64,000 bases of DNA from Sulfurovum sp. NBC37-1 (GTDB lineage Bacteria; Campylobacterota; Campylobacteria; Campylobacterales; Sulfurovaceae). The stretch lies in contig NC_009663.1 in assembly GCF_000010345.1 (NCBI RefSeq), positions 930,001 to 994,000 of the forward strand, in the 5' to 3' direction. A program made the position numbers and the translations under genes. Positions 22,845-51,968 of this stretch are shown piece after piece. The notes beneath the pieces were generated by a model. That model did no database searches. It was not told the origin of the DNA and saw only the letters and a list, made by a program, of their open reading frames with translations. Numbering within the stretch: the first letter of the stretch is position 1; each line of letters begins with the position of its first letter.

Positions 22845-22870
22845 GGTGTTGTAAGGGTACAACACCCTAC
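22845..22870 (-). repeat. Short GTAGGGTG palindrome, minus-strand copy
   Basis: Read on the minus strand it begins GTAGGGTG; the arms (plus-strand GGTGTTGTA at 22845-22853 and TACAACACC at 22858-22866) are perfect 9-bp inverted repeats round a CCCT loop (AGGG on plus). Length, head and loop equal those of the copy at 51361-51386, while the stem bases differ in a compensated way. Confidence 0.7.
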
Positions 22871-50510: not shown

Positions 50511-51968
50511 ATGCCGGGTGCCATATATCTACCTGAAGTACTCTATACTATTGCAGATCGTTTGGAAACCAAAGGTGCTGCTGTACTGCTTGTGGGCGGT
50601 GCGGTACGCGATATGGTCATGGGGCAGGATGTCAAGGATTATGACATCGAAGTGTATGGACTTACGACATTAGATGAACTCGAATCGGTCCTGTCTAAAT
50701 TTGGCAGTGTTTCTCAGGTAGGAAAGCATTTTGGCATCGTCAAACTGAGGATCGGTGATGTCGAGTATGATTTTTCTTTTCCGCGTACCGAGAGAAAGAC
50801 AGGCAGGGGACATACAGGCTTTGAAGTAGAAATAGATGGGATGCTTGATTTCAAAGAAGCAGCACACCGCAGGGATTTTACGATCAATGCCATCGGGTAT
50901 AATATTAAAACATATGAAATTCTTGATCCTTTTGGCGGCCTGAATGATATTCGGTACAAAATACTGCGCCATATCGATGACAGTACTTTCATTGAAGACC
51001 CGCTTCGTGTCTACCGCGCCATACAGTTCGCTGCACGTTTTGGTTTTGATGTGGCAGAGAATACAGCAGTACTTTGTAAACAAATGGTTGCATCAGGAGT
51101 ACTTGAAGAACTGCCCAAAGAGCGCATTTACGAAGAGTGGAAAAAACTGCTTCTCAAGGCGCCCAAGCCCTCCATGGGGTTTGGGCTGATGCGGGAGTGG
51201 GGTATCACCGAACACTGCTTTCTAGAACTGCATGCACTCATAGATGTACCGCAGGATACCAAATACCATCCTGAGGGGGATGTATGGACGCACACGATGC
51301 TGAGTATCGATGCTATGGCATCGATACTCAACAAGGAAGAGAAAGTAGAAAGTAGGTCGTGTAGGGTGCTGTCCCCTGACAGCACCACAGATAAACACCG
51401 GAATGAAAAAAGAGCATTGAAGCTTTTGTTCGCTGAATTGTGTCATGACTTTGGAAAACCGATGACTACAACGGTAGAAGAGGGGTGTATCAAGGCGATC
51501 GGACATGAAAAGGCAGGTATTGAACCCACAAGGTCATTTATGTATCGCCTGACAGAGGAGCATGATTTCATCGAGAGTATCCTACCTCTGGTGGAGCATC
51601 ATCTCAAACCATCACAGTTCTATAAACAGGGAGCCAAAGCATCTGCCATACGTAGATTGGCAACCAAAGTGAACATTGAAGATCTGGTGCTGGTGGCCAA
51701 AGCGGATTTTCTGGGCCGTACAACACCCGAAGCTAAAAAAGGTGTGTATGAAGCAGGAGAGTGGCTACTTGGGAAAGCAGAAGAGCTGAAGGTGAAAAAC
51801 AGGCCGATCGAACCTATTTTGCAGGGGAGGGATCTCATAGCTCTTGGAATGCAGCCTTCGCCAAGATTTGGAACTATTCTGGATGAGGTGTATGGATTGC
51901 AACTTGATGGAGTGATCTCAGACAGAGAAGGGGCTCTTGATCATGTCAAAAGGCATCATTGCCAATAA
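50511..51968 (+). CDS. CCA-adding enzyme / poly(A)-polymerase-family nucleotidyltransferase with HD domain
   Basis: 485 residues. The N-terminal nucleotidyltransferase has LLVGGAVRDMVMGQDVKDYDIEVYG (GG and DxD-type metal motif), then AAHRRDFTINAIGYNI and EDPLRVYRAIQFAARFGF. The HD domain has WTHTMLSIDAMAS and LCHDFGKP. It most likely matures tRNA 3' ends; poly(A) polymerase cannot be excluded. About 21 extra residues (from KVESRSCRVLSPDS to the HRNEK that precedes RALKLLFAELCHD) interrupt the usual link before the HD motif; they are coded by a GTAGGGTG palindrome and its flanks at 51340-51410. Confidence 0.9.
   Translation: MPGAIYLPEVLYTIADRLETKGAAVLLVGGAVRDMVMGQDVKDYDIEVYGLTTLDELESVLSKFGSVSQVGKHFGIVKLRIGDVEYDFSFPRTERKTGRGHTGFEVEIDGMLDFKEAAHRRDFTINAIGYNIKTYEILDPFGGLNDIRYKILRHIDDSTFIEDPLRVYRAIQFAARFGFDVAENTAVLCKQMVASGVLEELPKERIYEEWKKLLLKAPKPSMGFGLMREWGITEHCFLELHALIDVPQDTKYHPEGDVWTHTMLSIDAMASILNKEEKVESRSCRVLSPDSTTDKHRNEKRALKLLFAELCHDFGKPMTTTVEEGCIKAIGHEKAGIEPTRSFMYRLTEEHDFIESILPLVEHHLKPSQFYKQGAKASAIRRLATKVNIEDLVLVAKADFLGRTTPEAKKGVYEAGEWLLGKAEELKVKNRPIEPILQGRDLIALGMQPSPRFGTILDEVYGLQLDGVISDREGALDHVKRHHCQ
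51361..51386 (+). repeat. GTAGGGTG palindrome inside the CCA/poly(A)-polymerase gene
   Basis: Head GTAGGGTG, perfect 9-bp arms GGTGCTGTC (51365-51373) and GACAGCACC (51378-51386) with loop CCCT. Same length, head and loop as 22845-22870 on the minus strand. The frame is kept through it. Just upstream, 51301-51330 is another perfect inverted repeat (13-bp arms). Confidence 0.8.

Follow-up and report, generated by a model that had tools for sequence, protein, structure and literature searches.

In a GTAG REP, by definition, the letters GTAG immediately precede an imperfect palindrome, whose stem is 5-13 bp and whose loop is 2-20 nt long (PMC3733652, Table 1). The 2013 report that gives this definition already listed Sulfurovum NBC37-1 among the organisms with GTAG repeats, and it described intragenic REPs in other species (PMC3733652). 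The orthologous recB genes of Xanthomonas campestris and X. oryzae, for example, hold a REP at nearly the same position, though not the same REP. The same source treats the palindromic elements of Rickettsia, where RPE-1 is a longer palindromic insertion, and the short elements RPE-4 and RPE-6 belong to the CGTC super-family and have no link to a transposase (PMC3733652). The target-gene list of its Additional file 3 aside, that report appears to mention neither a copy in cca shared across species nor repeats recurring in one loop.

A GTAG REP in the HD Domain of a CCA-Type Enzyme

The window analysed here is a stretch of 64,000 nucleotides, bases 930001-994000 of the single 2,562,277-base contig of Sulfurovum sp. 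NBC37-1. On its forward strand (50511..51968) lies a gene of the CCA-adding/poly(A)-polymerase type (cca), whose product of 485 amino acids contains a PolyA_pol head, an RNA-binding domain and an HD domain. Indeed, PF01743, PF12627 and PF01966 all exceed their cut-offs in this protein, the HD motif is intact (H312-D313; surrounding codons at 51444..51455, forward strand), and alignment A1 shows no variation at the HD-type residues H261, H312, D313, H332 and H364. The protein is a member of the CCA-adding enzyme and poly(A) polymerase superfamily with an HD domain. A fold search retrieved solved CCA-adding and related tRNA enzymes, which confirms the enzyme family only; among the NCBIfam equivalogs, which would tell CCA, CC and A specificity apart, none reaches its cut-off with this protein.

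The element occupies positions 51361..51386 of the forward strand and consists of GTAG (51361-51364) followed by the hairpin GGTGCTGTC-CCCT-GACAGCACC (51365-51386), whose perfect 9-bp stem, 4-nt loop and preceding tag agree with the published definition; its predicted RNA energy is -15.0 kcal/mol. It is a single copy, not an inverted pair, and codes for residues 284-292 (CRVLSPDST). The preliminary description had seen a palindrome in frame inside this gene before the HD motif, and this holds: the hairpin is read in frame and the ORF of 485 codons stays intact despite it. The insert is smaller than the 21 or so residues then proposed, as the palindrome codes for 9. The EEK thought to be repeated on both sides occurs only on the left, the right side reading NEK, and D/E/N-EK is usual before the next helix in REP-free relatives; for this reason, a target-site duplication made of EEK and NEK was ruled out.

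The left flank of the REP (51339..51360, forward strand) contains GAAAGTA twice in tandem and GTAGGTCG, the 8 bases with which a second GTAG REP family starts. At 51301-51330, 30 nt upstream of the REP, a perfect 13-bp inverted repeat, TGAGTATCGATGC(TATG)GCATCGATACTCA, codes for SIDAMASIL; all other short-loop hairpins of the window are shorter. In the related genome G060, 11 of its 13 pairs are kept (one as G-U), and there are two both-side changes, at third codon positions.

The REP Family and Its Transposases in the NBC37-1 Genome

The palindrome is dispersed in the genome, as had been presumed. A pattern search allowing up to 3 mismatches found 43 forward and 38 reverse places, against 0 and 0 for the reversed-pattern control. 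Together with a scan of the stretches around the matches, rather than of the whole genome, this gave 76 copies at 43 sites. The number of separate hairpins is slightly below 76, because in a few cases a near-symmetrical palindrome was counted on both strands. Adjacent pairs are inverted in 30 of 31 cases, and the 9-bp stem is perfect in 36 of the 76 copies. The family includes the subtypes CTGTC..GACAG, CTGTG..CACAG and TTGT..ACAA and is found in 47 of 78 genomes of the genus. Within the window, the only other copy, of the TTGTA subtype, lies on the reverse strand at 22845..22870, where ORFs were screened at a length of at least 100 aa.

Two genes for REP-associated tyrosine transposases (RAYTs), at genome positions 2370498-2370989 and 2335855-2336370, score 142.9 and 150.8 with REP_Tyr_transpos (NCBIfam NF047646, cut-off 80), contain an HUH motif (HIH and HLH) and are both flanked on each side by REP copies. 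At genome position 2370986 (L110), the stop codon of the former is the TAG of a REP's GTAG. Since RAYTs reside among the REP copies, the system corresponds to GTAG REP systems as defined in the literature (PMC3733652, PMC2817692), a definition that also comprises many dispersed copies, frequent inverted dimers and a RAYT gene associated with REPs in the genome, all of them found here. As far as GTAG REPs and REPtrons with RAYT are described in these sources, the likeness extends to tag, hairpin, tens of copies, inverted pairs, RAYT genes among the copies and occasional in-frame residence in genes, with no difference in kind. Given the GTAG tag and the two accompanying RAYTs, the cca element is therefore a GTAG REP and not a Rickettsia palindromic element, to which it had been likened at first. 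The comparison remains apt for behaviour, as in both cases a palindromic repeat is read in frame within protein genes and apparently tolerated. Membership is ruled out: unlike RPE-4 and RPE-6 as described in PMC3733652, which are CGTC-tagged and lack a transposase link, the Sulfurovum element is tagged by GTAG and has RAYTs.

The preliminary description had proposed to look for the palindrome inside other genes, where it does reside. In addition to cca, in-frame REPs are present in NBC37-1 in genes for a FAD-binding oxidoreductase and an ArsP_1 permease, in priA and in murD. The REP in the flavoprotein oxidoreductase gene (FAD_binding_2; L162 and L113) lies at genome position 155100, and a single REP lies in the permease gene at 800761 (L092). 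The genes priA (2228945-2229021, L120) and murD (2290806-2290879, L108) contain inverted REP pairs, both common to G060; in priA the pair has the same place in the two genomes, yet the subtypes differ. In the oxidoreductase gene, G060 has no REP, and the stretch is 18 nt shorter with several local changes, which makes it the only apparent empty site, and an approximate one.

A Copy Shared with a Second Sulfurovum Species

The cca orthologue of G060 (L125; 74% protein identity) carries the same REP at the same position and in the same frame, KVESRSRRVLSPDSTTDKYRNKK against KVESRSCRVLSPDSTTDKHRNEK. This coincidence in a second Sulfurovum species indicates, on comparison of the two genes, that the insertion is older than the split of the two species. 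About half of the 43 REP sites locate a REP locus in G060 by their flanks, most of them with a REP at the matching position; thus, sharing is not peculiar to cca.

The gene itself appears as a mosaic. NBC37-1 and G060 share 63% identity before about position 51266 and 88% after it. In the tree of the N-terminal half NBC37-1 groups with L126 and L031, and G060 with L144, L132 and L130, while in that of the C-terminal half the two group together, with modest support in both. Based on the different tree neighbours of the two halves and on the step in identity, the HD half was probably inherited together with its REP, one lineage having exchanged the catalytic half. At about 88% identity in the REP-bearing half, the unchanged REP stem does not separate constraint from recency. 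No empty cca site at the DNA level was found among the orthologues, as both species that are closest in the REP-bearing half carry the REP, and the next-closest orthologues have about 70-74% protein identity. Aligning homologues, which had been proposed as a way to the insert borders, mapped the variable linker to residues 275-297; the exact borders in cca, as well as the insertion event, are inferred only, because the nearest REP-free orthologues are too diverged.

A Hypervariable Linker before the HD Motif

The REP lies in a linker between two helices of the HD domain (residues about 273-300; 51327..51410, forward strand), with indel columns at 275-297. Among 39 full-length orthologues of the Sulfurovum group, the linker ranges from 19 to 41 residues, the longest being those of NBC37-1 and G060, which contradicts the earlier statement that proteins of the family pass directly from one helix to the next. 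The NBC37-1 linker exceeds the genus minimum (57 nt) by 66 nt, of which the REP accounts for 26 nt, or 9 of the 22 residues by which it exceeds the shortest; the other excess residues are ordinary linker or old repeat. Across the 39 orthologues, length differences within the protein cluster at residues 275-297 and 325, with smaller indels elsewhere, the largest at 411. Residue 325 (51483..51488, forward strand) is a second insertion-prone point, a beta-turn at which relatives have 0-43 extra residues and NBC37-1 none. Inserts at this point, after the HD motif, include the peptide IPHSSFLIPHS, suggestive of 7-bp repeats of the ATTCCTC type.

In at least six other species, the linker matches a second GTAG REP, GTAGGTCGGGGTGTCC..CACCCCGAC, at 18-23 of 24 positions, in the orientation and frame of the NBC37-1 REP and with p of about 0.001 each against shuffled codons, values that are calculated per species and ignore shared ancestry. 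Three more species may carry decayed copies of this family in the linker. The family is dispersed in 38 of 78 genomes of the genus, and the cca loci of G032, G064 and G069 contain three of its listed copies. In about thirteen other orthologues the linker DNA has a 7-base period, with units such as GGGAGCA, GGAATGA and AAATTAA, and base matching in the linker peaks at shifts of 7 and 14, neither of which is a multiple of 3. GGGAGCA arrays are present in 20 of 78 genus genomes, and G031 and G093 have copies at their cca loci. Collectively, the linker sequences suggest independent invasions of at least three kinds. The situation is similar to that of recB in Xanthomonas as described in PMC3733652, but differs from it in that the Sulfurovum loop is used by at least eight species and hosts two REP families and a tandem-repeat class.

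An AlphaFold2 model was built for the window protein from a 7-sequence alignment with six related loci. Its mean pLDDT is 89, and values below 50 occur only at residues 1-3 and 281-292, the latter stretch lying between helices 258-283 and 291-311, whose bodies reach 96-98. This low-confidence stretch coincides with the loop encoded by the REP (284-292), which is thus predicted to be disordered, although the low pLDDT could partly reflect an alignment that is gapped at this very loop. In the same model, residue 325 forms the turn of a small beta hairpin.

Origin and Fate of the Insertion

Taken as a whole, the explanation that we hold with considerable confidence is that a GTAG REP was placed, most likely by a RAYT, in the common ancestor of NBC37-1 and G060 and persists at an apparently insertion-tolerant site of the HD domain as a tolerated passenger, a specific function being unlikely. 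The non-autonomous REP would have entered the exposed inter-helix loop in that ancestor, most likely placed by a RAYT, a Y1/HUH single-strand transposase, upon recognition of the GTAG hairpin. As the frame stayed open and the loop accepts extra residues, the copy would have been kept as a disordered peptide of 9 residues, most likely without a specific role for the enzyme; its survival is most likely due to the exposure of the loop and to the fact that no stop was introduced. Elsewhere in Sulfurovum, the same loop is occupied by 7-bp tandem repeats or by REPs of the second GTAG family.

The inserted peptide could instead be used, with linker length or sequence tuning the activity of the HD domain or tRNA binding, hence the repeated remodelling. 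A variable site lies close to the HD motif on either side, and the REP stem is identical between NBC37-1 and G060, as a role of this kind would have it. We nevertheless regard it as improbable, as the inserts, of 0 to 22 extra residues, have wholly different sequences and origins in the different species, which argues for tolerance and not for a shared function, and the loop is predicted to be disordered. Still harder to credit is an action of the hairpin in the mRNA, by ribosome pausing at the domain boundary or through mRNA stability, rather than in the protein: the predicted energy of the hairpin, its place immediately ahead of the HD half and the 13-bp hairpin upstream are in keeping with it, but a comparable hairpin is missing from the linker of most orthologues, and the 7-bp repeats that take the same place elsewhere are not palindromic.

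Somewhat less remote, though unlikely, is a history in which the linker of NBC37-1 and G060 first held a REP of the GTAGGTCG family, as the linkers of other species still do, and the present REP either took its place or was inserted into it. These 8 bases stand ahead of the REP and are read in the frame that they have in L132 and L143, the two families share orientation and frame in the linker, and the differing subtypes at the shared priA site point in the same direction. The case rests on 8 bases, however, three of which (TCG) may be usual upstream context of the cca REP family, and the 3' half of the older REP is unrecognisable in the NBC37-1 linker. Such a replacement is compatible with the passenger reading.

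A wider reading, which we advance tentatively and consider doubtful, is that this one loop of a housekeeping tRNA enzyme is a genus-wide landing pad for repeats, in which REPs of one family can be swapped in place for those of another, as in cca and priA, and continually feed new protein linker sequence. If true, unrelated repeats, namely 7-bp tandem repeats and REPs of two GTAG families, would have invaded the same loop repeatedly. Beyond the 2013 report go the shared cca copy, the variation of the linker with other repeats and the coincidence of the low-confidence loop with the REP-encoded one. The cca case represents a REP that has outlasted a species split while remaining part of a coding sequence, and the orthologues provide a natural series in which one enzyme loop has taken up different repeats. 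A single enzyme allows a direct test of whether peptides encoded by REPs are more than passengers.
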